A stretch of 64,000 bases of DNA. Source: Tribonema minus (taxonomy: Eukaryota; Sar; Xanthophyceae; Tribonematales; Tribonemataceae). The notes beneath the pieces were generated by a model. That model saw only the letters and a list, made by a program, of their open reading frames with translations. It made no database searches and was not told where the DNA came from. Below, in pieces: positions 649-26,900 of the stretch (positions are counted from its first letter, which is position 1; every line of letters begins with the position of its first letter). The translations under genes and the position numbers were made by a program. The stretch is taken from assembly GCA_017506865.1 (NCBI GenBank), contig JAFCMP010000145.1:1-64000 (forward strand). The letters are read 5' to 3'.

Positions 649-1350
649 GCTGACGCGCAGCGGGAGCGCTGCGATGGCAGCGGCGCCCTCGGGCGCCGCG
701 CCAGTCGCAGCGCGTACTTCTGGTTGTGGCGGCGCCGCGGCGCGCCGCGCACGCACCAGAGGCACTACGGAGTGCTGTGGCAGGCAGCGGCGGGCCTACT
801 GACGTCGGCAAGCTGCAGCACGCGCGGGCTTTGGCGAGGGTGCCGGTGAGCGCCGCCCAAACGGCTGACGCGCAACGAAGCGCTGCGATGGCAGCGGCGC
901 CCTCGGGCACCGCGCCGGTCGCGGCGCGTGCTGCTGGTTTGGCGGTGCCTGCGCGCGCCGCGCACGCACCAACAGCACCACGGAGGGCTGCGGCAGCAGC
1001 GGTGTCTATGGACGTCGCGCAAGCGGCGCGCGCAGCTTCTTCAGTGGCGCCGTCGAGCCCCGCCCAAGAGGATGACGCGCAGCGGGGCGTTGCGATGGCA
1101 GCAGCGCCCTCGGGCGCCGCGCCAGTCGAGGCGCGTGCTTCTGGTGTGGCGGCGCCGCGACGCGCCGCGCTCGCACCAGCAGCACCATGGAACGCTGCGG
1201 CAGCAGCGGCACCTTTGGGCGCTGCGCTGTCTGCAGTGCATGCAGCTTCTGCAGCAGCGGCGAGCGCCGCCCACGCAGCAGCTGCGCAGCAGAGCGTTAC
1301 GACGGCGCAGCTTCCGTTGAGCGCTGCTGCTGAGGAGGCGCCCACGAACG
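649..1350 (+). repeat. Imperfect Ala-rich coding repeats, pol N-terminal block
   Basis: Imperfect units of about 200 bases each encode variants of AQxADAQRSAAMAAAPSGAAPVAARA. Three clear starts lie near 649, 860 and 1060. GC is very high. The same unit reappears in the middle of the polyprotein at 4190-5130. Confidence 0.75.
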
Positions 1351-4300
1351 CTGCTCAAGCAGCAACGGCGCGATGGAGACCGGCGGCGTTGGCGGCGCCT
1401 GATGGTGCTGCACAGTCGCCGGCGACAACAACTACGACTGTACAGCGATGGCCTATTTTGGGGCGACGTAAGTCCAGCGGCGCGCGGCTACGGCGCGCGC
1501 GCGCGGAGCGCCTGCAGCAGGAGCAGCGCGCTCGACAGCCGGTAGCACCCCTCAGCCCTATTCAGGAGCTTGGTACTCCAGCATGGAGACCCGTGCATGC
1601 TGCGGCGGGTCATGGAGTTGGCGCGCACGCGTCATCGCAAGGGGGGGTGAGGATACCACCAGCACCAGCAGTGAGTAGCTGCAGCACGGCTACAACTGCA
1701 ACTTCTGCGCCGGCAACGGCGCCACATTTGGCGACTGCAGCAGCTGCTGCGACACGACACACGACAACTCCATCTTCTACACCAACTTCAACTCCGACAT
1801 CAACTGCGACTCCCACACATTCCTCAAGACCGCCTTCAGCACCACTCAGCGGCGGCGACGCTGCTGCGGCGGCGCACGCCGCCGACGACGCCGCCTTTGC
1901 AGCGGAGCAGCAGCGCAGGCTGATAGCTCTGCAGCGGCTTCATGCTTTCAAGGTGGATGGCACGGCTCAACCTGAGCCGCAGCGGCGGATGCGCAGCTGG
2001 GCGCCGGCGGCAGAGACCCTTGGCGCCATCGACGAGGTGCTGGACGGCGAGGCGGGCCTGACAGCGGTGGAGATAGCCATGGCAGAGGAGGCGCGCACTG
2101 TTGAGCGCTGCTTCGAGATACTGGCCATGTGGGCGCCGGAGGACGGAGCTGATGACGGGGCGGTCTTGGCATACTACGCTGAGGTGGCAGCGATGGAGGC
2201 CGCAGTACTACCTGTACCACAGCAGGCAAGCATGCCCAACGTAAGGGGCAAACTCTATACTGACGTGCACTCTAGGTTCAAGGCCCGTTTACGCTCTGCG
2301 CGCGCACTACGTTGCAAGTTTTCTAGGGACATTCTCTGGGACACTGGGGCCTCAGTTACTGCCATCAGGGAGCAAGCATTCCGCAAATTAGTTGCATCAG
2401 GAGCCATAGAGCAACGGGATGTCCACCACCTCAGCAAACCTAGGGCAGTAGCCGGTGTTGACACATCCAAGAAGCCACAGCGCGTCACCCACGCTGTAGC
2501 GCTTCACTTTGAGGCTGATGGCCCAGACGGGGTAGCTTTCACTCAGCTGGCGCTCATTGTACCACATCTGCCACACGACATCATCATTGGGCGTGACCAC
2601 ATCAGCAGACATAAGTGGCATGCAAGTCATAGTGGCAGTGGGCCCACATACGTGTATGGCGAGCCATCAGCAGAGCCCACCCCCAGCTTCAGTCCCAAAG
2701 TCCCAGTGTACACCTACGGGGAGGAACGCGATTGGGTGGCAGTAGTGCGCGTCGCAACAGAGCTAGATGGCCTTGAACATGGTGTGCAGACAGTTTGGGT
2801 TCAAGTGATGGAGTCTGATGGGATCACACCTGTCGTCTCCTGCCCGGGAGAACTGGACACAGCACATGTGACCATCGCGGAGGAATTCCTGAATCACATG
2901 TACACACGCGAGCTGACGGTTGGGCTGCATGCCAAGCCGGTCAAGCTCGAGCAGCGGGGGGAGCCCGTCTCGCTGCCACGTGGCACCGTGCTGGGCAAGG
3001 CGCGGCCGCTACGTGAGGTAACTGACAGCGTGCTGGAACGAGACCCGAACGCGCGCGCCACGGCGGTAGACGTTTACTGCGGCGCTGGCGGCCTGGCGGA
3101 GGGGCTCCAGCCCTACTTGAACGTCAAGCTCGCCGTTGACTCTGAGGAGCGCGCTCTTCGGATATACAAGGAGAATCACCCTCATACGGACGTCCGCCGC
3201 CGGGATATGGCGGACCCATCTACGCGCGCAGAGCTCATTGCAGATATGAGGCGGCTGCGCGCCGAGGTCTTATTAGGGGGCCCCCCCTGCCAGAAGTTCT
3301 CAACAGCAGGGGAGGGGGAGACGGCTTTGGGCATGGAGCACCTCTACTACATGCTGGAGGTAGCAATGGGCGCAGAGACCTGCCGACTACTGCAGATTGA
3401 AAATGTTCCGGGCCTTAGGGCGGCACCGGAGCTGGCGGAGTTTCTGCGCTGCGCAGCACACGGCGGCTTCACGGTGCAGCAGGAGCTAGTGATCACTGGT
3501 GCAGACAGCCGCATTGCTCAGACGCGCACGCGTGTGTTTTGGCTGCTGGGGCGACCTGGCACTGGCGAGCACGACAGCGCGCGCATGCAGGCGTCTATGC
3601 ACCAGGCAGTGCAGTTGCTGACATATGCCAAGCAGCAAGCTGAGTACGACACCGTGCGCAACGTCACCAGCGACGTGCTTGACTCCAACGGTCAGCGGCG
3701 CGACTTCTTTGCAACAGTTGGCCGCAACACTAAGGCCAAACAGGTGCACTCTATGGACGGCCCCGCGCCGACCATTCGCGGCTGCACATACCGCCGAAAC
3801 CTGCAGCCTAACATCGACGTGCGACCACAGGATGCTACGCAGGACCCGGCTGAGCACGCGCGCGCGGAGTACCTACCCTGGCATGCGCTGCGCGCCATTC
3901 ACAGCTTCCCCACCTCGTACAAGTGGGATGCTCCAGAGCCGCCTGACGTCACTGCCTACTCACAGATGCTGGCGAACGCGGTGTGCCCGCAAATGGCGGA
4001 CCTACTGGGGGGGATCCTGCTGCAGAGCGGATTGCTGCATGATGTCGTGGACCAGGCGGCGGCATCGTCGCTGCCAGATCCAGTACAAACCCTCATCAAT
4101 TCTGGCACCCACCACGCTTTCGGCAAGTATGGAGTGGCTCTTGCACAGGAGGCGCGCAGACGTGTGGCGCGCGGAGCGCGCGCCCCTCAAGCACAAGCTG
4201 CTGCAGCTGCGGCGGCGCCGGCGAGCGCTGCGACGGCGGCGCCGGCGAGCGCTGCTGCAGCAGAGCCGGCAAGCGCTGCTGCGGCGGCAGCATATACAGG

Positions 4301-7300
4301 CATTGCGCGCAGTGCGCCGCGGGCTGCTGCCGCGGCGCCGCAGGGTGCCGCACAGTCAGCGGCCGCGCCGCGGAGCTCTGCGACAAAAGAGACGTCTTCT
4401 GGCCCCCTACACGGCGACACTGCTGCTGCTGCGCAGGCAGCGGCTGCATGCCGGGGCGCTGCGGCGGCATCGGTGCCGGCTGGCACCGTGCGCGCTGCGG
4501 CCCAAGCTGCCTCAGGGGCGGCTCATAAGGAGGTCGCGCAGGCAACAGTTGCGCGACGGAGCGCTGCGACGGCAGCGGCGCCCGAGGGCGCCGCGCCAGT
4601 CGCGGCGCGTGCTGCTGGTGTAGCGGCTGCGTCGGCGCACGCCTCGCGCGCACCAGTGACACCAGGGAGTGCTGCAGCAGCAGCAGCGCCTGTGGGCGCC
4701 GCGCCAGCTGCAGCGCGCGCAGTCTCTTCGGTGGCGCCGGCGAGCGCCACCCAAGCGGCGGACGCGCAGCGGAGCGCTGCGGTGGCAGCGGCGCCTACGG
4801 GCGCCGCGCCTGTCGCGGCATACGCTGATTCTGCCGCGGCGCCGACCAGCGCCGCGCATGGAGTGGCAACTCAACAGAGCACTGCGGCAGCAGCGGCGCA
4901 TGCTGGCGCTGAACCAGTCGCAGTGCACATGGCCACCGCAGTGGAGTGGGCGAGCTCCGCACAGGCGGCAGCGGCGCAGCAGCGCTCTGCAGCGGCAGCG
5001 GCGTCTGAGGACGCCGCGCATGCGGCAGCGGCTAGTGGGAGCAATGCTGCAGCGGCAGCATCAGTGACAAGCGATACAGCGGCGCAGCCCGCGCACGCGG
5101 CAGGCGCCGCCGCGGCGGCGCCAGCGCGCGCTGGGAGGGAGGAGCACATCTTTGTGCTGGACCTGCGCACTGACATTATGCGCTGCGAGGCGGAGCCGGA
5201 GGGTGACGCCGGCAGCAGCGCTGACGCGACTATTGCGAAGGGCGCAGCAGCCGTGCGAGAGGCGCTGCAGCAACACCTCGGTGAGGCCGTTGACTTTGAG
5301 CCTAGTGGGAGCGCAAAAGTACACATTCCTGACAGCGGCGGCTTAAGTTTGGGGTCATACGTTCACGAAGACCCTAAGGTTAATGCTGCTTTGGCTGAGG
5401 CACGCAAGCACTTGCCAGACTACATGCTGGCAGTGCGCGTTGACCTGCAGGGATGGGACGTTGATCAGGTGGCGTGTTTGTGCCTACTGCTCGCTCAGTA
5501 CAGCAGCAAAATGTTCTCAAAAGACAAGTGGGACATAGGGCATTGTAACACATTGCCCTTCCGCTTTGATCTCAAAGAGGGCAGCACACCGCACCATGAC
5601 CGTCCATATAGGTACTCTCCTGCAATGACGGCTCTGGTCAAGGTCGAAATCGATAAGCTGCTGGCTGCTGGCATCATCCGCCCTTCCAACTCTGAGTGGG
5701 CATCCCCAGTGGTGGCAGTGCTCAAGCCTGATGGCACTGCCCGAATCACCGTCAACTACAAGAAGCTGAACGCCCAGACCAAGATCCCCCAGATCCCCAT
5801 TCCCAACATAGAGGATCTTCTCAATAGTTTGGGGGGCTCAAAGGTCTTCACCACCATGGACATCACCAGTGGGTACTTCACTAGTGCCATAGATGCAGAC
5901 AGCATCCCCCTCACTGCCATGGTCACGTCGTTTGGCTTGTATGAGTGGCTACGGTGCCCACAGGGGGCAGCGGGGGCGCCAGGGCACTTTACACGCCTCA
6001 TGCAGATGGTGCTTTCCGGCCTAGAGCGCGTCCAGCCCTACATTGACGACGTCATTGTGCACTCTACATCCACGGCTCAGCACCTCGACGACCTCAAAGC
6101 CCTTTTTCAGCGCCTAGAGCATCATGGGATGAAGCTAGCCCCCAGCAAGCTGCACATAGGGTGTAAGCACATCAAGTTCCTGGGGCACATTGTGGGCGTT
6201 GATGGCATCAGGCCAGATCCATCCAAAGTTCAAGCCCTACTTGAGATGCCCATCCCCTGCAACATCTCTCAGCTGCGTGCGTGGCTTGGCCTCGCAAACT
6301 ACTACCGGCGATTTATTCAGAACATGGCCAAGCTGGTAGCATCGCTCACCCATCTGATGGCCAAGGGGGTGGACTTCATAGTTGGCAGTGCTCAACAGCA
6401 AGCCATCCGCGAGGTCAACGAAGCCCTGGCGCTTCACACTTGCATGCAGTACCCCGACTACGCGCGCGCCAGCACAGGCGAGCGCCCCTTTGTCCTTGCC
6501 ACAGACGCATGCAAGGAGGGCTTTGGCGCAGTGCTCTCGCAGGCCAACAACGACGGCGCGGAGCAACCGATCGCCTTCACATCTTGCGCGACTCTACCCA
6601 ATGAGCGCAACTGGTCTACTACCGACCTTGAAGCCGGCGCCATCGTCTTCGGCATCAAGAAGTTCAAACACATCCTGTGGGGGACGCCGTTTGTCCTCTA
6701 CACCGACCACCGCGCTCTTCAGTACATCGACAGCCTTCGCGAGCGCACCGCGCGCGGCGCGCGCTGGAGCGAGTTCCTCAGCGCCTTCAACATCACCATT
6801 CGCTACAAGAAGGGCGCGTCACACGGCAATGCCGACGGGCCAAGCCGCAATCCTGTCCCTGCTACACCACAAGATGCAGAGGAGAGCGAGCGCGAGCGGC
6901 TGCTCGAGGCGTACTGCCTGCAGGCCCACGAGTGGGAGCGGCTGGAGGCATTTGCAACAGCAGAGTACATCAACATCTGCACGGAGGTGGTAGCAGCGCT
7001 TCAAGGAGGGGGAGAGGAGCAGATTTCCGCGCTTGCTGAGGCGGCAGACGCTGAGGCGGGTGCATGGGAGTGCTTCGCTGAGCATCCTCAACTGGGCGTC
7101 ATGACGCCTGGTGACTGGCAGCGAGAGCAGCGCGCAGATGCTCAGCTGGGGCCAATTTGCAACATGCTGCTTGGAGCAGGACTGCCAGCAGACGCGGCGC
7201 TTGCAGCCCAGGTACAGAAATGGGCCTTGCAGTGCAGCCTTGTCGTCTGCGGCAACGCTCAGCTCTTGGTGCACAACACCCCCGAATCCCCGCTTCCACA

Positions 7301-9275
7301 GCTTGCCATTCCCCGGTCCATTAGGGATCAAGTTCTTGAGGCGATGCACGGCTCAGCTTGGGCAGGCCACCAGGGCATTAAACGCACATTGGAGCGCACC
7401 CGCGCGCACTGCTGGTGGCCCTCTTGGACCCTAGACGTCAACTACTGGGTTAATCATTGCTGGCCCTGCCAAGCGTTCAAGCACACCGGCAAGCTGTCTC
7501 GCTGGCCCACTATATGGCGCGAGAGGCCCCCCTACGCCTTTCATAGCCTAGCGCTTGACCACTTCGGCCCCCTACCCCTCAGTGCTGGCGGCTTCATGTA
7601 CATACTGGTGGTGATGTGCCTGTTTTCGGGCTGGGTGTGGTGCTATCCCATCAAGCCTGGGGACTACAGTGCTGCTGGCACAGCTGAAGTTTTAGTCAAC
7701 CAGCACAGCACTCGTCACGGTCCCCCTTCTAAGCTCCTCAGCGACCGCGGCAGCCTCTTCATGGCAGAGCTTTCTCAAGCTGTCTACAAGCAGATGGGCG
7801 TCAAGAAGCTTTCCACTACCGCATACCACCCTGAGTGCAACGGCAAGTGTGAGCGTTTCATGCAGGAGCTAGCCCAGATGCTCGCCATGTTAGTTGATAG
7901 TGCCAAGAACAATTGGGCGGACTGGCTACCTCATATCAGTTTTGCCCACAACACTGCCTACAACCGCGCCACCGGCGCAACCCCCTTCCTTCTGGCTACT
8001 GGTCGCGAGGCCGCCGTCGCACTACACCTCATACTGGGCAAGCTTCAACAGCCCTTGGTCAAGCCTGGCACACATCCTTCAGTGTCACAGCTAGTGTTCG
8101 ACATCCTTGAGCGGCAGCGCTCAGCCAACACCATTGCCAACCAACGTCATGCGCTGCGACGGGCTAAGGTGCTCCGCGAGAACACCGAGATCGCGGAGGC
8201 ATTTGGACTACGTCAGTCGTTCAGCGCTGGTGAGCGAGTGTGGTACTACCATGTGCCGCGCACGCATACGGCATCTGCAGACACGGAGCCGGCACCAGTG
8301 GCGGGGGAGTTCAACAAGGCGAAGCGCACACTCTTTAGCAAGAAGCTCTTGGATAGATGGCATGGGCCCTATAGCATAATATTAGCGGGCCCGGCGGAGA
8401 GCGGCGGGGAGCGTGTGCAGGCCGGGTGTCTTCTGGTGGACATCAACGGACGGCCTACGCGCATATCGATGCGCCTCACCAAGAAGTGTCGCGACCCTAG
8501 CGACATGCGGCAGCAGCCGGAAACGTTGCCTGCGGGCTTCTCTCGCTACCTGCTGGCGAAGCACTGGAGCGGGCATTCACCTGGCTCACTCTCTACTGAC
8601 GACGTTGCTGCTCACAACTTCCAGCGGCACGGCGTAGAGGCGATACTTCAACATCGTGTAGCGGCGGCAGCGCGCGGGCGGGGGCACCGCCTACAGTACC
8701 TAATACGCTGGGAGGGTGCAACCAGCGGGGGGATAGTTGACTCGTGGGAGGACTCCGAGCAGCTAGATGAGTGCCCCCAAGTACTCGAGGAGTACTGGTC
8801 TACATTAAACAAGGCCATTGCCTGTCGCGACATTACAGTGGCGGGCTCAAACACTCAGGTGGTCAAGCGTCAGCTGCGACGCGCCGTCAAGGCGCGGGGC
8901 GTTGGCGGCGTTCTGGCCCAATGTGGTGCGGGCTCGTATGAGCTTGCGCCTCTGGCGGAGGCGTTACTCCAGCCACCTGCGACATCGGTGTTGCAGAGTG
9001 CAGCTATCAGCGGACTGCAGCTTATGGCTGTTTTCAAGTTCACGGAGCCAAGCGGCGAAGAGCACCTTACTTGGTGTGAGGGCGAGCTCACAGGCGTAGT
9101 CTCAAAGGGGAAGACAAGGCGTACACAGATAGCTCATAGGGTGTTCTGGATTGTTGAAGGGGTGTATCAGACCCTAGTACTGGACCCTAGCTTGTACAAC
9201 ACGCGCCCAGATGCATCGAATGGTTCTTGGTTCCTAGTTGGCACACAAGCCCAGCTGGAATCATTGCATGTGTAG
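654..9275 (+). CDS. pol: Ty3/gypsy Pol polyprotein with embedded C5 cytosine methyltransferase and chromodomain
   Basis: The frame is open from the TGA at 651 to TAG 9273-9275. The first in-frame ATG is at 888 and a GTG lies at 726; residues below count from 726. An Ala-rich repeat region comes first, then retropepsin (DTGA at 539; HDIIIGRD), a C5 methyltransferase at about 779-1100 (DVYCGAGG, GGPPCQ with Cys855, ENV at 892, QTRTR at 932, ANAVCP near 1084), and a second Ala-rich repeat region. Reverse transcriptase follows (YIDD 1772-1775), then RNase H (TDAC, Asp1927), integrase HHCC finger (His2208) with D2278, D2340 and E2376 (a D,D35E spacing), DRWHGPY, a chromodomain at about 2637-2690 and some 150 unassigned residues. 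Every catalytic motif is intact, so the copy is young or selected. Functions are inferred from motifs; the start codon is unresolved. Confidence 0.9.
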   Translation, partial: RAAGALRWQRRPRAPRQSQRVLLVVAAPRRAAHAPEALRSAVAGSGGPTDVGKLQHARALARVPVSAAQTADAQRSAAMAAAPSGTAPVAARAAGLAVPARAAHAPTAPRRAAAAAVSMDVAQAARAASSVAPSSPAQEDDAQRGVAMAAAPSGAAPVEARASGVAAPRRAALAPAAPWNAAAAAAPLGAALSAVHAASAAAASAAHAAAAQQSVTTAQLPLSAAAEEAPTNAAQAATARWRPAALAAPDGAAQSPATTTTTVQRWPILGRRKSSGARLRRARAERLQQEQRARQPVAPLSPIQELGTPAWRPVHAAAGHGVGAHASSQGGVRIPPAPAVSSCSTATTATSAPATAPHLATAAAAATRHTTTPSSTPTSTPTSTATPTHSSRPPSAPLSGGDAAAAAHAADDAAFAAEQQRRLIALQRLHAFKVDGTAQPEPQRRMRSWAPAAETLGAIDEVLDGEAGLTAVEIAMAEEARTVERCFEILAMWAPEDGADDGAVLAYYAEVAAMEAAVLPVPQQASMPNVRGKLYTDVHSRFKARLRSARALRCKFSRDILWDTGASVTAIREQAFRKLVASGAIEQRDVHHLSKPRAVAGVDTSKKPQRVTHAVALHFEADGPDGVAFTQLALIVPHLPHDIIIGRDHISRHKWHASHSGSGPTYVYGEPSAEPTPSFSPKVPVYTYGEERDWVAVVRVATELDGLEHGVQTVWVQVMESDGITPVVSCPGELDTAHVTIAEEFLNHMYTRELTVGLHAKPVKLEQRGEPVSLPRGTVLGKARPLREVTDSVLERDPNARATAVDVYCGAGGLAEGLQPYLNVKLAVDSEERALRIYKENHPHTDVRRRDMADPSTRAELIADMRRLRAEVLLGGPPCQKFSTAGEGETALGMEHLYYMLEVAMGAETCRLLQIENVPGLRAAPELAEFLRCAAHGGFTVQQELVITGADSRIAQTRTRVFWLLGRPGTGEHDSARMQASMHQAVQLLTYAKQQAEYDTVRNVTSDVLDSNGQRRDFFATVGRNTKAKQVHSMDGPAPTIRGCTYRRNLQPNIDVRPQDATQDPAEHARAEYLPWHALRAIHSFPTSYKWDAPEPPDVTAYSQMLANAVCPQMADLLGGILLQSGLLHDVVDQAAASSLPDPVQTLINSGTHHAFGKYGVALAQEARRRVARGARAPQAQAAAAAAAPASAATAAPASAAAAEPASAAAAAAYTGIARSAPRAAAAAPQGAAQSAAAPRSSATKETSSGPLHGDTAAAAQAAAACRGAAAASVPAGTVRAAAQAASGAAHKEVAQATVARRSAATAAAPEGAAPVAARAAGVAAASAHASRAPVTPGSAAAAAAPVGAAPAAARAVSSVAPASATQAADAQRSAAVAAAPTGAAPVAAYADSAAAPTSAAHGVATQQSTAAAAAHAGAEPVAVHMATAVEWASSAQAAAAQQRSAAAAASEDAAHAAAASGSNAAAAASVTSDTAAQPAHAAGAAAAAPARAGREEHIFVLDLRTDIMRCEAEPEGDAGSSADATIAKGAAAVREALQQHLGEAVDFEPSGSAKVHIPDSGGLSLGSYVHEDPKVNAALAEARKHLPDYMLAVRVDLQGWDVDQVACLCLLLAQYSSKMFSKDKWDIGHCNTLPFRFDLKEGSTPHHDRPYRYSPAMTALVKVEIDKLLAAGIIRPSNSEWASPVVAVLKPDGTARITVNYKKLNAQTKIPQIPIPNIEDLLNSLGGSKVFTTMDITSGYFTSAIDADSIPLTAMVTSFGLYEWLRCPQGAAGAPGHFTRLMQMVLSGLERVQPYIDDVIVHSTSTAQHLDDLKALFQRLEHHGMKLAPSKLHIGCKHIKFLGHIVGVDGIRPDPSKVQALLEMPIPCNISQLRAWLGLANYYRRFIQNMAKLVASLTHLMAKGVDFIVGSAQQQAIREVNEALALHTCMQYPDYARASTGERPFVLATDACKEGFGAVLSQANNDGAEQPIAFTSCATLPNERNWSTTDLEAGAIVFGIKKFKHILWGTPFVLYTDHRALQYIDSLRERTARGARWSEFLSAFNITIRYKKGASHGNADGPSRNPVPATPQDAEESERERLLEAYCLQAHEWERLEAFATAEYINICTEVVAALQGGGEEQISALAEAADAEAGAWECFAEHPQLGVMTPGDWQREQRADAQLGPICNMLLGAGLPADAALAAQVQKWALQCSLVVCGNAQLLVHNTPESPLPQLAIPRSIRDQVLEAMHGSAWAGHQGIKRTLERTRAHCWWPSWTLDVNYWVNHCWPCQAFKHTGKLSRWPTIWRERPPYAFHSLALDHFGPLPLSAGGFMYILVVMCLFSGWVWCYPIKPGDYSAAGTAEVLVNQHSTRHGPPSKLLSDRGSLFMAELSQAVYKQMGVKKLSTTAYHPECNGKCERFMQELAQMLAMLVDSAKNNWADWLPHISFAHNTAYNRATGATPFLLATGREAAVALHLILGKLQQPLVKPGTHPSVSQLVFDILERQRSANTIANQRHALRRAKVLRENTEIAEAFGLRQSFSAGERVWYYHVPRTHTASADTEPAPVAGEFNKAKRTLFSKKLLDRWHGPYSIILAGPAESGGERVQAGCLLVDINGRPTRISMRLTKKCRDPSDMRQQPETLPAGFSRYLLAKHWSGHSPGSLSTDDVAAHNFQRHGVEAILQHRVAAAARGRGHRLQYLIRWEGATSGGIVDSWEDSEQLDECPQVLEEYWSTLNKAIACRDITVAGSNTQVVKRQLRRAVKARGVGGVLAQCGAGSYELAPLAEALLQPPATSVLQSAAISGLQLMAVFKFTEPSGEEHLTWCEGELTGVVSKGKTRRTQIAHRVFWIVEGVYQTLVLDPSLYNTRPDASNGSWFLVGTQAQLESLHV
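3054..4020 (+). other. C5 cytosine DNA methyltransferase domain inside the Pol polyprotein
   Basis: This part of the pol ORF carries the ordered signature motifs of DNA cytosine-5 methyltransferases. These are SAM-binding motif I (VDVYCGAGGLAEGL), catalytic motif IV with the PCQ cysteine (codon 3288-3290), motif VI ENV (codon 3399), motif VIII QTRTR (3519), a short target-recognition region containing TIRG, an RAIHSFP segment and motif X-like ANAVCP (N codon 3975). Such enzymes transfer methyl from SAM to C5 of cytosine in DNA. It lies between protease and RT, with the reading frame unbroken on both sides, so it is part of the polyprotein and not a neighbouring gene. Target sequence specificity cannot be read from the sequence. 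Confidence 0.9.
4190..5130 (+). repeat. Ala-rich coding repeats, block between methyltransferase and reverse transcriptase
   Basis: Same repeat family as at 649-1350, with closest units near 4540 and 4740, preceded by PASAA triplet-like repeats at 4200-4290. It probably acts as a flexible spacer or protease-processing linker between the methyltransferase and RT modules. That role is an inference; the sequence shows only the repetition and maintained frame. Confidence 0.75.
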
Positions 9276-9445: not shown

Positions 9446-9453
9446 AGGGGGGG
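9446..9453 (+). other. Polypurine tract of LTR retrotransposon
   Basis: AGGGGGGG immediately precedes TGACTGTGG, the expected form of a plus-strand primer site next to a 3' LTR beginning with TG. It sits about 170 bases after the pol stop codon. Confidence 0.55.
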
Positions 9454-9960
9454 TGACTGTGGTGACACTGGATGTTGGAGTGTCACCTGTAACTGTTACG
9501 GTTGGCAGTTACGAGTTGTTCGTTGTTGTTTGTTTGGCTCAGACAAGAGCAGCAGCCCCAGAATACACATAGCACAGTTCGGTCAGCTGTGTTGTGTGTG
9601 GGTGTCTTCTCTGCATTGTTCCCTGCACTTGCTGAAGTGTAGTACGGAGACTAGTTGTTTCATCATGATTCAGAAGTCGTCGGGCACACACGTGGCACAC
9701 CATAACTGCGACAGTCACTGTCAATACTGTAGCTGCAGCCAATTTTCAGATATCAACACAAAGCTGATTAGAGTGGCTCAGTGCTGCAATCGTGTTATCC
9801 GGTCTCCCATTTTCTGCACAGTCACAGTAACTGTCAGCCTGAGGCCGCGCTAGCATGACACTGTGACTGTCACACAGTCACTGGCAGTCACTGACTCTGC
9901 AGCTGCTGTAAATAAAATGTAAAAGTGTGTCTCTCAATCTCCTTGTTTCGCGGTTAGCTG
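9454..9960 (+). repeat. Putative 3' LTR
   Basis: Starts TGACTGTGGTGACACT just after the polypurine tract, contains many short GTGAC/GTCAC inverted motifs and an AATAAA polyadenylation signal at 9911-9916. The right end is uncertain: no second LTR is in the window, and the terminal CA could not be placed. Confidence 0.4.
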
Positions 9961-12900: not shown

Positions 12901-15900
12901 AGCATAACGCCAGGCCTTGCATGCGTCAGTGCGTTGTGTATCGTCATGTGGTACTTGCAGGACAAAGCAGGAAACGGGATACTGTCTGTCATGGGTGCAC
13001 AGGCTCGGATCGTTGCAAATGTTACATGGCTGTCGCATGCGCCTGTGCCTCAGGACTGCCACGTACCCCCATTCTCCAATGCTGGGTTGCTCGAACCCTT
13101 CTTGTTGCGCATCATGTCTTGCCATGACCGTTGCGTGGCCGAGCAGTGTCGACGTGCCTAGCTGATCCGTTCTCGTGCTGTGCGACACCATTGCAGCCAA
13201 CTGCCGAGCCCACCGCAGAGCCCACTGCAGAGCCAGCCCACTCCCACGCCGACTGCAGAGCCCACTGCCAAGCCCACGGCTGAACCGACTGCAGAGCCCA
13301 CCGCCAAGCCAACTGCAGAGCCCACCGCTGAACCCCTCTAAGCCCACTGCGGAACCGACTGCAGAGCCCACTGCCAAGCCCACTGCAGAGCCCACCGCTG
13401 AACCCACCGCCAAGCCAACAGCCGAGCCGACTGCAGAGGTGATTGCAGTTACCGGTTGAGCATTGCTGAGCGTCATTGCCTACATGTTCTGCACAATGGC
13501 TACAGATGGCTAGCGGGTGTTTCCATTGTGTGCGCGCGCTGTGTGACGTGTGCGATTTGACATCGTATCATAATGTAACAGCGCGAATGACTGACACCGC
13601 CGGCAGAGTCAGTTGTACGATTGCGTGTGCTGCATCCGTGTCGGACGGGCATACATACCTACTGGACATCAGGGAACGCAGCAGCTGTAGGGGCCCGTAT
13701 TCACGGCTGTCAAATGTGATCACCGCCATGCGTCACTATTTGTTTACCCTTTGCATAAACGTCCGCAAGAGATGCTGATGACTGATGAGAACGGTGCCTG
13801 TGTGTGTGTCCCTTATTGCTGCTGCGCAGCCGACGGCAGCGCCTACCGCCAACCCTACGAGCACCCCTACCGCCAACCCCACTAGCACCCCCACTGCCAA
13901 CCCTACAAGCACCCCCACTGCCACCCCCACAAGCACCCCCACTGCCAACCCCACGAGCACCCCCACCGCCAACCCCACGAGCACGCCAACAGGTATGAGC
14001 GCGAGCAACTGTAGCACACGTAGCGCATATGCTTAGGGGGCCATACAGTTGGGAGCAACCGCACACACTTTTTTTAGCAGGGATTTACATGACAGCATCT
14101 GTCTAAGATGTGACACGCGTGCGGTAACTCGGAGTTTGAAGTTGGCCATATTCGGTTGCGAGTGCTCCAGTGTTGTGGCCATCGTTCACATTCAGCAGGT
14201 CATCACCCTTGGTGCCGTTGGTGAAAGCCTTCCGGTTACTGCAAGCTGTTTCTGACTAGCAAGCTCGCAAGAACGTGCAATACGTTGGCATTTGCACATC
14301 TGAAGTTTTCATCACAAAACATGAAGCAAGCTGGCGGTTATGCACACACAGCGCCTGCTTTGGTGGCACTCATGAAGCACACTTCTCCTACCCATGTTAG
14401 GGTTGGCACAATGCGTATATTTGGATTTTACATACCCGTTAATATACGTATTTTTGGCGTATAATACGTATATACTGCGTATATTAGCGTATATGACAAA
14501 GCCACAATGACATAACTGCCACTTCCTGTTATTGAATTTCTCTCAAACCAAGTGCATTCGAACAGGCTCAGACTGCAGGCTACAGATATGCAAACATCAG
14601 AACAGATTGCACCAAATTCAAAAAGAAAGAACGAAACAGGTTTGTTGATGGTATTGAGACGTTGTTGGACGTGGAACGTTGACTAGCCTAGGCGCCCTCC
14701 TCCAGCAGCTCAAGCATGACCTCCTCATCAAGCACATCGGCAGCCTTCTTGTCGTTGCCCTTGATGAACACCAGCTTCTCGCCCTTTGCAAGAGCGAGGT
14801 TGCTGCGGCACTTGGTGTACACCGTGCCCCACAGCGACCAGTTCCGTTCAGTGGCGCACGCGGTAGCGTGAAACGATAGAAGTCTCACAGCCACCTTGGA
14901 CACAAGAGGGAAGTGCTGGCGGCCTACAGTCTGCCACCAACCGCGGCGCATGGTTCCATTGGCTAGCTGCACCTTACCAGACGCCAGCGTGGTGCGCTCC
15001 ATCAGCGTTGGCAGCGACTCCCACATGACCTCTGGCAAGGGCGCCAGCTGCATGCGAACAAGCTCCGCGGTGATAGCCGCCGCATGCTCCGCTCCGCCCA
15101 GCTTCAGGATGCAGGCCTTGGCAGCCGCGAGCTCCATGGGCTCCAGCGATCCGAAGGGCAAGAACCACTCGCCGTCCGTCTGCACCGCGTAGCAGGGGTC
15201 AACAACGTAGGCGGCCACCCACTCCTTGGCCCGATGCAACTCGTACCGCCGCTCAAACAGCGGCAGCGCGGCTGCGCGGCCCTCGTTGTCGGGATGGGCG
15301 TCAAAGTTGGCGGCGTGCTTCAGCAGCTGCTTCCAAATGGGAAACAACTGGCTGAGCAGCGCCTTATCAGCCTCCAGCTGGTGGATGGCGTCGCTCACCG
15401 GCTGCACCAGCGTCTTCAGCGCACTGGCCTCGCTGAAGAAGCGGTATGCCGGCGTGCGGCCGCGCGCGGGCACCATGGTGGCAGCACCGGCAAACTCGTC
15501 CGCGTGCGTTGTGGTGCCAGAGATGGTGGGCCAGTCGCGCGCGGACGCCATGCGCCTGATGGCCTCCTCAGACGCCAACAGGTCGCAGATGATGAAGTGC
15601 AGGATAGCAAAACGCGTGGGGCAGTGCGTGCGGACGCCCTTGACGCTGCCGTACATCTCCTTCTGCTGCTCGCGCAGCGCGCGCTTGACCGGCTCGCAGC
15701 CGTTGATGGTGTTGGACATCATGAGGCCGGTGGCGTACGCCTTCTTGGACCAGGGCAGCCGCGTAGTCTTGTCGCCGTGAAGGTCCTTGATGAGCAGGGC
15801 CAAAGCATGAGCCTGGCACCCGAGCAGAATCCACTGAGGGTGCTGCGCCTTCATCATGTCCATGGCTTTTCTGTTAGCCTGCGGGTGCAGCGCGACACAT

Positions 15901-18900
15901 GCACATTGCACGAAGATGTTGAGTCAAGCACTAAACTTGATCATGATGCGCGCATCAAGACACCATTAGCACACTTCATTTGTCACACTAGGTATGGTCG
16001 CATACACATGACAAAAAAGAAGCATAGAGAAACTTTGTTACATCAAGAACGGTTGCATAACGTGATATAAGAAGCTTACCTTGGTGTTGTCCATCACCAT
16101 GCCCAGCATCCGGCTGAGATCACCCTCCGTGACCTCGTGTGCCCAGCGCAGATGCTGCTCCTTAATCCACTCGGCGTTCTTGCACACGCCCCGCGCTGCC
16201 TCCACCTTGACGAAGCGGGACCCTCCCTTCGGCTTCAGCACCATCACGTTGATGAGGGGCGCGCCATCGGCGCAGTGATTGCGCCGCCACCCGTCTGTTG
16301 AAAGCTGGAGCAGGAAGAGCTGACGGATCTCCTGCCAGACGTCAGCTCTCACCCGCTCGTACTCCGCGTCCAGCATCTTGTTGGCCAGTTGCTTGCGGCT
16401 AGGGAGGGTGAGGCCTAGGGCCTTGAACGAAGCCAGCAGGTCCTCCTGCTCGATAAGGTGCAGAGCCACGCCGCTTTTGTAGAAGAAGCGGGCCAGACAG
16501 GTGGTTGCCTGGGTGATCTGATGCGCTGAGACCATGTGCTGCCTCACGTCCTTTGCAGGCACAGGGCTGGCCAGTTCACTGTACGAGGCCGCTTGTGTCC
16601 ACTCCCACCTTCCTCTTCCACATCAGTCGCAGCGGCCGCTGCTGCAGCAGCTGACGCAGCCTCCGTAGCGACTGCAAAAGCCCTGGTGCAGGCTCGGCTG
16701 TTCAGGTGTGAAGTTGCCCGAGCCGACGGGTTAAGGGCGCTGAGCTGCTCCGGGCAGCGAAGGCATTGCAGGACAACCTCTGTGGCTGAGAGCATCACCA
16801 CGTCAAAGCTGCTCCACCAATGAGCTCTGCCTTTGAGCTTCTGGCCCCTCAGCTTGTCAAACAGAGCCCTAGCTTCCTTGCCCTTGTCGGGCCCAGGGTC
16901 AGGGGCGTCGTCCATGGCTTGAAGTGAATATACGCAAAAATACGCACCCGAATGGCGTCTACGCGTATATATACGCGTATATACCAATATACCGTATATA
17001 TACTATCTACGCAAGCGCCAACCCTACCCATGTTGCTCACGTGACTCAGCGTTGACAGTGCTATTTGACAAGTTTGAGCTGGCCATGAATCACCTGCATC
17101 ACCGGACAGAGCCTCAATGCGTGCCCTGTTCAGCACAATTGCAACTGCTGCCACTTGATGTAGTAAGCACACGCTCGTCGTGGCACATTGTGTGGGCGCG
17201 TCTACTTCTATAATTGTGAATGCTGCTATTATGCTGACCTCTATCAACCTTCTCGCTGGTGTCAATCTGGCACATTGCGTGCGCGCGTCTACTTCTACAA
17301 TTACGAGTCTGCCAGTTTCTAACCTTCCTTAACCTTTTCGCTGTTGTCCACCTGCCCAAACAGCCTCCCCTACCAGGACTCCCACCGCTGCAGGACCGAC
17401 GGCAACGCCCACTATCAACTGCTCGAACCTCGCCAGCAAGGTGAGTTTCAAATCAGGGCAGGAACAGTAGAGATGGTAGGGTAGGGTAGACTACATGATG
17501 ACTTTTACAACAGAAGCATGATTTACCATTTTCAGCACAGCTGTCTCAGGCACACCAACTGCTCGAACCTCGCCAGCAGGGTGAGCCTCAAAACAGGGCA
17601 GAAAGCAGAAATGGTAGGGTGGGGTAGGCTACATGATGACTTTTACAACAGAAGCATAATTTACCATTTTCAGCGCTGCTGTCTCAGGCACATCAACTGC
17701 TTGCACTTGGCCAGCAAGGTGAGCCTCAAAACAGGGCAGGAGCAGTAGAAGTGGTAGGGTGGGGTAGGGTAGATGACATGATGAATGCCACAACAGGAGC
17801 ACAATGTTGTTTTCAGCGGTGGTGCCTCAGACATACCTGGACTCGCCCCATGTGTGATGGGGGTATACTAAAGTAGTGAGTGGCTTGATCGACGCTGCAA
17901 CCGCAGGTGCCGAGTTGACGTGTCTTTATTTGTATCGTTCTTTTGCGTGGATGAAACTGCAACAGAATGGAGTTGTGTCTCTCCACAAAACAAGCAATTT
18001 AGCCACGGCGGACTTGTGTCTCCCCTCACGACAAGCAATCTGGCCACTTCTTTTGCTTTCTGCGTGATAGAAGTATATTGTTTGATGTTGTCGTGCAGAA
18101 GTGGTCGTGCGAGCATCAATGCTCACGGCGTTGTTGGCTGGCCCGCAGTCTCGTGTGCAATGCCGCTGGCAACGCACCGCGCTGCATATGATCCTTGTGC
18201 ACTGACGCAGATACCTGGCTCATGCCACTGAGATGTACACTTCAATGCTTCACACCTACACACCTGTCTCTGAACGCTCCGAAAAGCCACCCACTATAGT
18301 ACAGGCAGCCGCACTACCCTTACCATGTGCGTGACTCTTGTGCATACATCATGAGTGTTCGGGCGAGCAACATCATGTTTTCAACTTATTCTATCCTTTG
18401 TGTGCTCGGGCACCACCCTGCAGACTTGCAACACCGTTGTCGGCACCACCCCTACCACGGGCACCTGCTACACGACCGCCACCGCACCGAACGGCACAGT
18501 CGGCGGCCCCAGCGCGGACTGCGGAGGCGTGTCACGCGGGTTCGCGTGCTACATCAGCAGCTTCTCGAACGGGCTCTGCACAGGTACGGAGGTCATACGC
18601 GGTGTCGCGCATGTGCGTGCAGTTGAAGAGAGCTCATACGTGGTGTTGCGCATGTAGCTGCAGTTGAAGAGACGTGTCATGCGGATACGCGTGCTACATC
18701 AGCAGCTTTGCCGCAGCGCTCTGCACAGGTACGGAGGTCATACGCGGTGTCGCGCATGTGCCTGCAGTTGAAGCATGTGATTGCTGCGCATGCTTGCAGC
18801 CATGTGCTGTGATGCGGCGCAGCGCCGGTTGTTGAGACACGCGCAGCGCGCACGCGATGGCAACGCTCAGTCAACTTTTGGCTCGTCTACATTTTTAAAT

Positions 18901-20961: not shown

Positions 20962-23900
20962 TGCAATACTTTTGCCTCTTGCCAGGCGCCTAGTCGCTCT
21001 CTTCACGCTGCAGATGCGTCTTGCCTAGGGACAAACAGTGCTCTTGAGGATCCTGTCACGACAGGGCATTGTGATTTGGCACCAATATCCGGGCCGGCGA
21101 AGGTCACCACCGTGACGGTGGCGACCCGGATACCCTCAACCGTGTGCCATACAGTCACCGTGGAGGAGCAGCAAGACGCGCTGGCAAAAGCCACCAACTA
21201 TGGCTTTTCCACTTGGCACACGGGCCTGCAGGCACTCCACAAACAGGCGCTTGGGGAAAACACAGCGACGCTAGCACGTGGTGGGGAGCTTCGCCCCGTG
21301 AGCAACGTGGGCAACGGCAACTGCCTGATTCATACAGCTCTACACGGCATAGGCAGCGTCGCAGTTGAGCACGGACTGCCGGCCCCAGCGCTGGTGATTG
21401 CCATGCGAGAGGCACTGCTGGACGGGATGGTGGCATACGTCACGCAGGGGGCGGGCAAACAAGGGGCCAGCATGTCATCGATGCGTCAACTGACCGCGCA
21501 TGCCGCAGCCCAACCTGCGTGTACACGTGAACAATTCGACACGTACGGGACACGCGCTCGCTGCCTCGCAATCGAGTACGGCACAAATGAAACGGATAGC
21601 AAGGACAGCGGGCACACGCTCCTGCTGCAACGCCTACAGGAAGAGGGCGTGTGGGGACGGCCCCTCGGTTTGTCTGTGTGGGCCATTGTTGCAGCGGTCT
21701 ACGCGGTCTCGGTGACGGTGTGGCAGGCCAAGCCTCAGGCCACTGGCAGCACGCAAAAATCAACAGGGCTGGTGCTGGCACAACTGATGGGGCTGCCAGC
21801 GGTATTCGCACCGGCGACTCCAGCTCAGCCTGACTGCCATCTGGATGTGCTGTGGACGCCGCCTGGGCTATATACAAATGTGGGACACTTTGAACTGCTT
21901 GTCGCCCCTGCGGCAGCTCCGCCCTTGCCAACCACTATGACAGCGTCGGCGACCACTCAAGCTGACAGCACCCACATCACGGCTCCGAGTCGGACACAGC
22001 CCCGTACTGCGCTGCAGTTGCCACAGCAGCCTGAGCCACTGAGGTGTCCACTATGCACACTGGCATTTTGGCAGCTTGGTCAGAAAGAGGACAGCAAACA
22101 GCGAGGCAAACTGTCAGCTGCGAGCCGCATGGCACCGGTAGTGGCCCACTTCAACGGTGGTAGCTGCACGAGGTCGATGCTGAACCCTGAGGCGAGCACA
22201 TCACACTGTCAGCAAAATCCGGCGGCAGCATACGCCAAGGGCATCCGGCAGCAGGTTGATCACGACCCATCCGGTGACCGTGCCCCTTCAGGCAGCAGTA
22301 CCTGCAGCACTGGGGCACACCATGCCAAGCATGTGCAGGAGATGAGCACCATGTATGGTTGCACGGCAGAAGACTTCCTACGGGCGGTAAGGAAGCTGAG
22401 TGCATGCACAGGTGCCTGCGGCCTGGTCCATATGTCAGCCAGCGCGGGGCAGAGGCAATGCGCGCTGACCTCGCCATGCCACACGTGTCGACGGAATGGA
22501 AGCGCCCCCACGCGCGCACGCCCGGCAGTACCCCCGGGCCAGTCCGAGGGCGGGGGTGCGGGTAGCGACGGCGCGGCCGCGGCGGCGGGGGCTGCCGCAG
22601 CGACACCTCCAAAACTACCGGCGGTGCCGGCTAGTGGCGCTGCCAACTCAAAGTCTAGCAAGAAACGCCCGGCGGCCACGGCAACCGGCGCGCAACGCCG
22701 GCGCCGAACGGCAGCTGCTGCGGCACCGCCTAGCAGCGCCGGCAGCCGCACTCAGTCTGACAGCCTGAGGCTGCAGGACAGCAGCCCCCCCCGCGGGACG
22801 GCCGTGGGATGGGCGGACATGGACGTGGACCCGCCGGACGATGCCGCGTCACCGCCCCCCCCGACCACCACCACCAGTGGCAGGCCCTCAAAGCCCCAGG
22901 CACGAGCATCCCTGGCTTGGGACCTCTCGACGCCCTCGGTCGTCCACGCACTTGACCAGACCAATGAGGCGGATCTACTGCTGCTGCGGTTCACCACGAC
23001 TGCCAACCCCTTCCGCACTCAGCTGCAGTGCACCCAGTGGGCACGGCTAGTGGAGCACGCCACACGACTACTGGCGGACGCCACAGACAGTGCACGTGAG
23101 GCGGCACGGGTGCGCCTCCACCATGGTGCCGGGGCGTTTGCTCATCAGGTTTCTCAGACTCTAGTGCAGCGCGGCTACAGGCTGCTGCACCTGCTAGCAG
23201 CGATGGCCTTTGGTAGGCAACCGGAGGGAACCGGTATGCCGCCTGCGGCCCGGCTGGCAGCGTTGCTGTCTGGCGACTTCGCGGAGCTACTGAGAAAGAC
23301 GCTGTCAGCAGCAGCGGCGCTGCGGGCCCCCAAACCAAACAACGCAGCTATGGCGTCGGCACAAACGAACTTCGATGCCGACTGGACGGAGGCTGACTCC
23401 AGGCAGCAAACAGCATGCGCTGCCCTCTCAGGCAAGCGACGGGGGGTAGGCTTGGCTGCCGCACGACTAGAGGCGCGTGAAGCATGCGCCCCAGCAGACG
23501 AGGTCACGGCACAGGTGCTGGCAGCAAAGCACCCTGAAACTGGCACCCGGCCGGGGGTAGTCGATACGCCAATGGAGCAAGTGCGCGGCCTGGTACGCGA
23601 CGCCCGGCGGCACTGCTTACACAGCGCAGGGGTGGCAACGACCACCGGGCCAGCTGGCAGCGGCAGTCCTGTCTTCGAATCGGGTCAGGCACATGATCAC
23701 AGCGATAGGCCTGAGGATGCTGCCAGCGCAGCCGGACGGCGCCTCGAGGTGGAGGCGGCAGACATACTGTCGACCTTGTCCGCAGCAGGGGCGGGGAAGG
23801 CAGGAGGGCTGGACGGCCTACGCTATGAACACCTCTTGATGGCCGCTGGGCCTGGTGCACCAGTGAAAGCAGCCACCCGCCCCGTGAGCAGTGCCTCGCC

Positions 23901-26900
23901 AGGACTAGCTGGTGATTCAGAATCAGATGTGATGGAACCGGCATTCGCTCATCACCTGGCCAAGGTGTTCACGACGCTGCTTGTTGAGCCCGAACTGCTG
24001 CCGGAGCAATCGCAACGGCTTCTCCGCGCCGCGGCCCTCTCAGGCATAGGACAGAAGCGGCGTCCGATCGCCTGCTCCAGTGTCTGGCGCAGACTCCTCG
24101 GGTCCACAGCGGCACGGAGTGTCAAGGGCAAGATATCGGGGCTGCTGGCCTCCATGTCGCAGTTTGGCGTAGGATACCGGTCTGGCGTCGAGCATGTGGC
24201 AGCGCGCGCGCGCGTGTGGCACGAGCTGTATGGCACCACTATCCAACTGGACTGTGAGAACGCATTTAACAGTGTGGATCGCGCCGCCATTGTGCGGGGG
24301 CTTATGCTCTTCTGTCCGGAGCTGCTCCCGCACTTTGAGTCCGTATACTGTGGTGACACTGCCCCAGAGATGCGGGTGGAGGTGAACGGTGAAGCTCGCA
24401 TTATCTGCTCCCACCTAGGGTGCCAGCAAGGGGACCCTCTAGGGCCGCTGTACTTTGCAGTGGCAGCGGCCTTCCTACTCTTCTACCCTGATGGAGTGAA
24501 TGCGACGCCCGGCAGTATGCCGGCCTACGGCCACAGCACAGCGGAACCGCCAGCCCCGCACTGCGCTTTCCTGGATGACCTCAACGTGCTGCAAGCTGCC
24601 TACTTCGACGATGCAGCGGCCGCTGGGGTGGCAGAGGTGATCCGCCGGCTGGCGGCAGGGGGCCTACGCGTTCGACCAGACAAGTCGCTGGCCATCGCCA
24701 TGCGCGGCACAGTGTTTGATGAAGCGGCCAGAGCACGCCTGCGCGCCCTTGACATACCGTTTGTGGACACCACCATGCCAGAATCCAGTCAGGGCTTTAC
24801 ATCGGTCGGGGTACCGGTAGGGCACCCAGCCTATGTGCACGCTGCCATGAGCAAGCATCTTGTCGACGCAGGGACATGGCGATTGTCGTGGCAGCTAGCT
24901 GGAATGGCGCGGCATCACCTACAGGCAGCACAGTTCATTCTACGCAGGTCACTGACGAAGCGCATGGGCTTCTTAGCTCGGGTCGTTGACACGGCTTTGA
25001 GTGAGACATGGTTGCACGCGTTTGACGGGTTCTGTGCATGGACGCTCGAACGCATGCTGCATCTGCACGGCTGCTCTACCGCGGCAGCCATGAAGTCACA
25101 CCTGCTGGCCGCCTGCACTGCTGGTGACAATGAGGAAGCCAGCAGTGGCAGCGTGCTGGTATTGCCGCGCTTGGGCCCGCCAGAACTCACGGACATCGCA
25201 GTGCCACTGCGGGCGTCACGGTTGCCGGAGCGACGAGGCGGTCTGGGCATGCCGCTTTTGGGGCTACTGGCACCAGCCGCATACACGGCCCAGGCATGCA
25301 CAACACTGAGGCCGGCAATAATTCATGCCACTGTGGCAGCAGGGGCCCTGAGGCTCGGCACTGACGAACACGGCGCAGTCACCTGGTTCGCGCAGCACTC
25401 ATGCGCAATACGCGAGGACCAGGGACTGCCGCCAATCATCGAGGCCGTGCGACGCTCTACGCGAGCGCTGACAGCTGATGGCGGCGAAAAATCACGCACA
25501 GCTGTGGCCGAGCAGCTCCCAGCATCGTTGCTACGGTGGGCAGCAGATACGACGGCCGCAGCGTCGACGCTCCCCACTGCGGTGCAAGCGATCTACGCCG
25601 CAACTGCCGTCACGGAGACAGTGACCACTGAGCCAGCCCCACACACCCACGGCATTGTGCCTGGCGCCGAGGCGGCCGCTGCGGCGGCGACCGTACCTGG
25701 CCCTCAAGCCGCTGCCGCGGCTGCCCCTTCCACGCCCGCTAAAACACAAACTAGCGCGGAAGAAAGCAGCTGCAGCGGCGGGCAGGAGGACGACGACGAC
25801 GACTGGGAGGCCTATGCTGATGAGATCTGCAGGAAGGTAGTGCCCCGCCGCCGGCGCGGTCACTTCACGCACGGACTACAAGCCGGCCTTTCAAATGTTC
25901 TTCGACGTCAATACGAGGATTGCCTGGTGGAGGACCTAGAGGCTGCCTCGGCTGGTGCCGTGGGCAAGCCGACGCAGGCTGCACCTATTGGTGACTCGCG
26001 CGACACCAGCCGCCGCCGCCAACAGGCTAGCGCACGGGTCCTGGCGCAGCTGCGCAGCCAGCGTGCGTCCGGGGCAATGGCGTGGATGAGCGTGCCACCC
26101 ACTGCCAATGACCGCCCGGGTGCGGCGCCCATGTCCAGTATGGCAGCAGCCACGATGATTTTGATTGCGATCTTCATAGACGGGTGGGGCATACAGGGCG
26201 AGGTGTGCCCATGGCGGTGCAGTGATGTGAGCCCCACCTCCACGCATGCGATCAGCTGCCCCAGCCAGCACATACGGGGGCACAACGCGACACACACTGC
26301 CCAAAAGCGGTGCCTGCAGCGCATCTTGAGACAGCACCATGTCTCTATTGTCCGCAATGAGGACGCTAGCGTCTTCAAGGTACCGGGGTATCGGGCGGAC
26401 ACAGTCATTGACCCAGGGTGTCTGCACTTTAGCAGTGCATACCGTAACAAGGGAATAGTGCTAGACACAAGTGTGCGCGCGCCCACAGCGAGCTCGAACC
26501 TGACAGGCAGAACAAATGCCTCGAACACGGACGGCTATGCTGCTGGGGTGGGGGAGGACGCGAAGGTCAAGCACCACACCGGCACCTTGACGTCATCTTG
26601 GGCTTTTGTGCCATTCGTGCAGGAGTCGTACGGACGGCTGGGCAAGCAGACAAGCCTTTTTGTTAAGGAGTTGGCAATGCACTCAGCACTGTGCTCAGGG
26701 GGGGGGAAGGCAGATGTGTTACGCAAGGCCGGGTTAGCTAAGCGTCAGATCCTCATTGAGCTGAGCATATCGCTGGCGCGGGAGTTGGCGGAGCGCGTTA
26801 TGGCGTACACACGTGGAGCGCGAATGCTGGGCTGTGTTGCGGCGCCGGTATCCAAGCTCCTAGGGCACAGCGCAGACTAGGCTGCTGCGTTGACGCAAGC

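Follow-up and report, generated by a model that had tools for sequence, protein, structure and literature searches.

Why should a transposon encode its own silencing mark? The question is raised by positions 1 to 64,000 of the Tribonema minus contig JAFCMP010000145.1 (here C145), the 64,000-nucleotide stretch referred to below as the window, at whose left end a pol gene with an embedded C5-cytosine methyltransferase (MT) domain is found. The reading favored here, which is given about an even chance on the sequence evidence, is that a young Ty3/gypsy long terminal repeat (LTR) retrotransposon is represented in the window by its 3' part and that its Pol polyprotein includes a working-looking MT that was captured once from a bacterial type, has been kept, and would methylate the element's own cDNA.

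The pol gene forms a single open frame on the plus strand, on which all features of the element lie (positions 654 to 9275, 2873 aa; the portion from 726 to 9275 corresponds to the 2849-aa protein P0001), and encodes, in this order, a protease, the MT, reverse transcriptase (RT), RNase H, integrase, and a chromodomain. The MT domain (3018 to 4055) is delimited by a Pfam match at 3063 to 4001, by alignment, and by the predicted structure; the DNA_methylase match spans residues 780 to 1092 of P0001 and positions 3 to 316 of the 324 in the profile (E 2.5e-18). The retropepsin-like protease (2313 to 2645) has no Pfam match in the window copy and was recognized by a motif scan (ILWDTGAS from 2331, and IIIGRD; P0001 residues 536 to 624, upstream of the MT) and by a homologous stretch in family B; the spacer that separates it from the MT (2646 to 3017) is 49% identical to that of locus L030. 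Downstream of the MT, an alanine-rich linker (4056 to 5345), whose repeats at 4432 to 5035 are in common with an N-terminal linker (642 to 1429), leads to a Ty3-like RT and RNase H (5544 to 6878; Pfam RVT_1 at residues 1666 to 1823 and RT_RNaseH at 1919 to 2021 of P0001). The integrase (7308 to 7832, from Pfam) consists of a zinc-binding part with an Integrase_H2C2 match above the cut-off (residues 2195 to 2253) and an rve core whose match (residues 2283 to 2369) scores 30.9 bits, below the cut-off of 32.6. The chromodomain (8634 to 8801; Pfam Chromo, residues 2637 to 2692) sits C-terminal to the integrase core, the placement that characterizes chromoviruses, and scores 29.0 bits against a cut-off of 25.1. 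The element is a Ty3/gypsy retrotransposon by the position of RT-RNase H before the integrase and by an RT nearest to that of Ty3 (Ty3-G is the best PDB match, E 2.4e-61; the best non-Ty3 chain gives 9.5e-37). The Ty3 element of yeast has the same RT-RNase H-integrase order and is not known to have an MT or such linkers. Tyrosine recombinase, the hallmark of DIRS elements, was not among the Pfam matches of the window pol, in which integrase domains are present instead.

Within the MT, the motifs that we take to be I, IV, VI, VIII, and an X-like one occur in order as CGAGG, GGPPCQKFS, ENVPG, QTRTR, and LANAV; in some other families of the element (see below), motif X reads ADLF or ADLV. In an alignment of 16 rows, 10 of them MTs from these elements or from relatives in the databases and 6 of them other MTs, residues G22, G24, G25, A39, D41, C91, E128, N129, R170, and R172 are invariant in all 16, and the window MT is 22 to 25% identical to the six other MTs. 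The AlphaFold2 model (predicted local distance difference test score [pLDDT] 82.4, predicted template modeling score [pTM] 0.86) has the two-domain fold of C5-MTs. Judged by these sequence features, the domain looks able to methylate DNA. The preliminary description of this DNA, which had placed an MT with ordered motifs between protease and RT, and a chromodomain in the same Ty3/gypsy pol, is thus borne out by Pfam, motifs, and alignment. Its term “intact” fits pol, a single open frame, but not the whole element: contig C145 starts at position 1 of the window, which leaves this copy without its 5' LTR and most of gag, and the 3' remnant of gag (1 to 456, the C-terminal part, with a knuckle-like CYNC..H stretch in frame 3 and a TAG at 454 to 456 in frame 1) carries a frameshift when compared with copy C340. 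At the other end, a purine tract (9446 to 9453) lies directly 5' of a 212-bp 3' LTR (9454 to 9665; TG..CA form at 9458 to 9665) that is common to other copies.

By sequence and predicted fold, the window MT appears to resemble bacterial MTs, DNMT2, and DNMT1 more closely than DNMT3. Structural comparison (VIA Z) gave the highest values for M.HaeIII (25.8) and DNMT1 (25.3), versus ∼20.5 for DNMT2. Searched alone against PDB, the window MT had 14 matches, including a prophage MT, DNMT2, M.HaeIII, and DNMT1, none of them DNMT3; the MT profile had 55, again without DNMT3, although 3 of its 11 rows are of the bacterial type and bias it in that direction. The tree is also compatible with DNMT3 kinship: constraining DNMT3A with group 1 or group 2 of the element MTs (defined below) was not rejected (approximately unbiased test, p-AU 0.105 and 0.293, respectively; the KnitGypsy MT is outside this tree). 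The nearest sequences outside the element group are stand-alone Dcm-type MTs (P0010, P0014, P0017, and P0023, and the prokaryotic loci L032 to L111), in which the resemblance continues past motif VIII into a YYRHPR..PSPTIRG region; these are proteins of ∼300 aa, 22 to 25% identical to the window MT, whereas the latter is embedded in Pol. A scan of genome contigs with bacterial-type MT queries yielded only bacterial or archaeal sequences among the best 80 of 578 confirmed loci, the collection consisting of prokaryotes. A near viral source was sought in two scans of viral contigs, and none of their 2 and 14 pattern matches was confirmed. A long-protein search with the MT region of P0001 gave no match. 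The DNMT1-RFD domain had no match in the genome, and the control likewise had no match anywhere.

Near-identical copies of the window element with the same domain order are present at many independent loci, and the aligned copies of its family (family A) are 98.8 to 99.9% identical to the window, so this family is young and recently mobile. In copy C340, both 212-bp LTRs are present, with one mismatch and one gap between them, and a gag of 1095 codons ending in TAG is followed in the same frame by a pol of 2936 codons; 6 of the RT copies among the matches listed, C340 included, each lie in an open frame of 2936 aa. Behind the stop codon of gag in C340, the signal for readthrough is weak (z -1.95; 8 of 200 shuffles did equally well), and the window copy shows no such signal (z 0.24). 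A possible 4-bp target-site duplication (CCGC) was found in C84 and none in C340. In the C84 copy (L014), which keeps both LTRs and an open pol, a deletion has removed gag together with part of the protease region. At C101:627001-642999, two copies of the window family (L009 and L010) lie head to head with a junction at window positions 2233/1343, reflecting either a true inversion or an assembly fold-back.

The preliminary description had called for a genome search for further copies and held that their lacking the domain would mark this one as a chance chimera; an MT was found on the same strand 0.8 to 2.8 kb upstream of RT in 66 of the 74 related RT copies checked. The fractions are 35 of 39 at RT identities of at least 94%, 19 of 22 at 73 to 84%, and 12 of 13 at 51 to 65%, and the remaining copies (4, 3, and 1, respectively) include ones that are broken or near contig ends. 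This survey entered 81 of 99 RT rows and 75 of 123 MT rows, the omitted rows being mostly short pieces, and an omitted MT row can only reduce the MT count. Seven further RT matches, at 37% identity, had no MT by search with the window MT; L124, the one among them that was read, nevertheless contains a divergent one (PF00145, E 2.2e-9). In the genome as a whole, the best 123 of 378 candidates match PF00145, ∼48 of them in open frames longer than 2000 aa by hand count. What had been described as a single element belongs to a set of 11 or more gypsy families with an MT: all 11 that were read (A, the window; A2, L030; B; C, L027; D, L029; E, L031; F, L022/L025; G, L019/L023; H, L124; I, L125; and J, L126) carry the MT, including the three chosen by RT alone (H, I, and J). 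Beyond these 11 lies one further RT subgroup, ∼64% identical to L027 (for example, C323:67038-68147). Because such diverse relatives in the same genome also keep it, the MT looks like a long-kept working part of the element and not an accident. The chromodomain scores 24.4 bits in L030, slightly below the cut-off, and was matched by tblastn (47%) in the family B copy L021; no match was seen in L027, L029, and L031, whose frames were cut at their end.

Two domain orders are found. The protease precedes the MT in families A and B (for A2, only the spacer fell in the piece read), and the same order is seen in the database protein P0009. The opposite arrangement, with a protease-like stretch following the MT, is found in C, D, E, and G and, on inspection by eye, in I and J as well. 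These sets, A, A2, and B (PR-MT-RT) and C, D, E, G, I, and J (MT-PR-RT), are referred to as groups 1 and 2, respectively. Family H, judged by eye, seems to have a protease-like stretch upstream of the MT, and none was found in family F. Among L027, L029, L125, and L126, the DTGA/DSGA of the protease active site is replaced by DCGA, DPGA, or DNGA.

Was the MT captured once? The RT tree, which was built without a reference chromovirus set, contains the clades A+B, F+H, and C+D+E+G+I+J, each with support of 100/100, and the MT tree contains the same three (100/99, 98/92, and 99/90). The RT of broken copies is represented in the trees by its longest open piece, and the MT rows G_L019 and P0002 may have out-of-frame tails. 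MT and RT identities correlate across 12 representatives (r 0.889). Because the two domains share their clades and diverge in a correlated manner, a single old capture with co-descent of MT and RT is favored. All 18 element MTs also fall on one side of a branch (93/90). At least two independent captures, in which groups 1 and 2 each took an MT from related bacterial-type sources, are doubtful but possible enough to be kept under consideration, because A and B have the MT downstream of the protease and the group 2 families have it upstream, because MT identity between the groups is 18 to 26%, no higher than that between the window MT and the six other MTs, and because the F+H clade is placed differently by the two trees. 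RT, rooted on Ty3, puts F+H with A+B (83/84, with long branches flagged), and MT puts it with C+D+E+G+I+J (99/93); furthermore, the branch that joins the element MTs is unstarred. The common clades, correlated divergence, and one-sided placement of the element MTs argue against separate captures. The proposal that the MT is an acquisition distinct from the DNMT3-type Gypsy elements is plausible, with no DNMT3 among the 14 and 55 PDB matches, while the tree, suggested earlier as a check, unites the element MTs without rejecting kinship to DNMT3A.

Those DNMT3-type elements are the closest published parallel. KnitGypsy-Dnmt3 of Klebsormidium nitens is intronless, occurs in several copies, and, like the window element, has a C5 MT embedded in a Gypsy Pol, with the MT under purifying selection (PMC5890265). 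Its MT is of the DNMT3 type and its repeats are described as DIRS-like in arrangement (PMC5890265), whereas the window family has ordinary LTRs, a chromodomain, and an MT nearer to those of bacteria, DNMT2, and DNMT1, and many MT-bearing families coexist in one genome here. The same source describes in Symbiodinium the high-copy SymbioDIRS-Dnmt3 and SymbioLINE-Dnmt elements, with purifying selection; the DIRS enzymes methylate CG in yeast, and the LINE MTs form an orphan lineage and not DNMT3 (PMC5890265). These resemble the present elements in being MT-bearing retrotransposons with many copies and, for the long interspersed nuclear elements (LINEs), in the non-DNMT3 character of the MT, but they are DIRS or LINE elements of a dinoflagellate and not Ty3/gypsy elements with an rve integrase (PMC5890265). 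The MT-bearing retrotransposons found in print represent separate captures, of DNMT3 type in dinoflagellate DIRS and charophyte Gypsy elements and of orphan type in dinoflagellate LINEs (PMC5890265). Here, a non-DNMT3-like and seemingly old MT is present in every gypsy family read in one genome. No report of a comparable radiation was found in the open-licence PMC literature, outside of which are most subscription papers and all preprints; cytosine-MT gypsy elements in other algae may already have been observed.

Under the favored reading, a gypsy ancestor would have captured a bacterial-type MT once and retained it as a Pol enzyme, its order relative to the protease changing later. The MT would be made within the Gag-Pol polyprotein (in C340, gag and pol share one frame with a single UAG between them), packaged in the particle together with RT, and act on double-stranded cDNA no later than integration; a new copy would in this way enter chromatin premarked. 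Methylation of cDNA is a reasonable assumption because the SymbioDIRS enzymes show CG activity in yeast. Premarking may shield the cDNA from a host defense directed at foreign DNA that lacks methylation or, alternatively, may keep new copies silent but tolerated, and the chromodomain may contribute targeting. A bolder version, offered tentatively, is that one such capture founded a Ty3/gypsy radiation in an alga with a red-type plastid. The MT would then have become a fixture of Pol, no less regular than the protease or RNase H, and would label each new cDNA as self ahead of integration, in an anti-restriction-like manner. The question posed at the outset becomes directly testable in this genome, where motif IV is ordinary in some families and altered in others, two domain orders exist, and some copies are very young.

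Several points weigh against the favored reading. Motif IV is altered, with its cysteine kept, in family E (SSC, L031) and family H (TRC, L124), which makes these two MTs candidate weakened enzymes. The KnitGypsy and SymbioLINE enzymes had no activity in yeast, a result called inconclusive by the authors (PMC5890265). Support for the branch uniting the element MTs falls to 73/81 with fewer rows, and the tree includes one DNMT1, one DNMT2, and one DNMT3A, without DNMT5, DNMT6, ChloroDNMT, or giant-virus MTs. The RT searches scored the best ∼100 of 597 and of 622 candidates, so MT-free gypsy elements may exist. The F+H discord, together with the fact that 8 of the 11 families (A to G, with A2) were found or fetched through their MT, lowers the weight of this reading and of its bolder version and raises that of two captures. 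On the side of the favored reading, the MT shows a low dN/dS between families, at 0.24 (window and L030, for which that of RT is 0.13), 0.18 (L020 and L026), and 0.20 (L029 and L031), but at dS values of 1.26 to 1.70 that are near saturation. Within families, it is 0.07 for L027/L028, on 6 changes, and 0.42, 0.63, and 0.96 for three broken family B pairs, on 12 to 16 changes. Transitions were compared in 9 of 13 aligned pairs (from a set of 16): in six older pairs, which share copies and were compared without a control of MT-free repeats, the odds at CpG are 1.6 to 3.4 times those at GpC (uncorrected p from 0.036 to 4e-12), and CpG transversions also exceed GpC transversions in five of the six; three young pairs had too few changes. 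The transition excess fits the presence of 5-methylcytosine on these copies, with the host and element enzymes not distinguishable as its source.

The same excess, along with the 378 PF00145 candidates and the two RT searches that each had ∼600 candidates, would also be in keeping with an MT that acts in trans on host chromatin, silencing competitors or spreading methylation, with cDNA not its main target. This is unlikely, given that an MT inside Pol is expected to be packaged with RT. Quite improbable is an RNA target (the genomic RNA or the tRNA primer), methylated in the manner of DNMT2 to aid reverse transcription or packaging. Both the profile search and Foldseek have DNMT2 chains among their top matches; the structural comparison, however, ranks M.HaeIII and DNMT1 higher, and the window MT has GGPPCQKFS in place of the DNMT2 signature PPCQPxTRIG, which is seen in a DNMT2-like gene of the host (L004, split across two open stretches). 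An assembly chimera or chance passenger, as might be suspected from a contig that begins inside gag and from the head-to-head pair in C101, is ruled out for practical purposes by the same domain order at many independent loci and in P0009.

The host appears to have a red-type plastid, provided that the RuBisCO large-subunit fragment L129 that suggests this is not contamination: its best PDB chain scores 4.8e-34 and 1gk8 scores 2.6e-17, the best-matching chains being presumably of form ID (red-type) and 1gk8 that of Chlamydomonas. No Chlamydomonas-type telomere pattern was found in the genome. The loci L001, L002, and L003 (C223 and C181) encode MT frames of 367 to 390 aa in which Pfam recognizes no other domain. 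In the MT tree, L001 and L002 are separate from the element MTs, and the three loci may represent a different mobile element or an insertion of viral origin. Elsewhere in the window, a 1972-aa open frame (20962 to 26880) with a marginal RVT_1 match and, by eye, an OTU-like N-terminal stretch belongs to a very young and very numerous LINE-like element, a 2-kb piece of it having at least 40 copies listed at ∼100% identity, of 676 candidates. On the minus strand, positions 14688 to 15911 hold a hAT transposase-like frame (Dimer_Tnp_hAT, E 2.5e-8).
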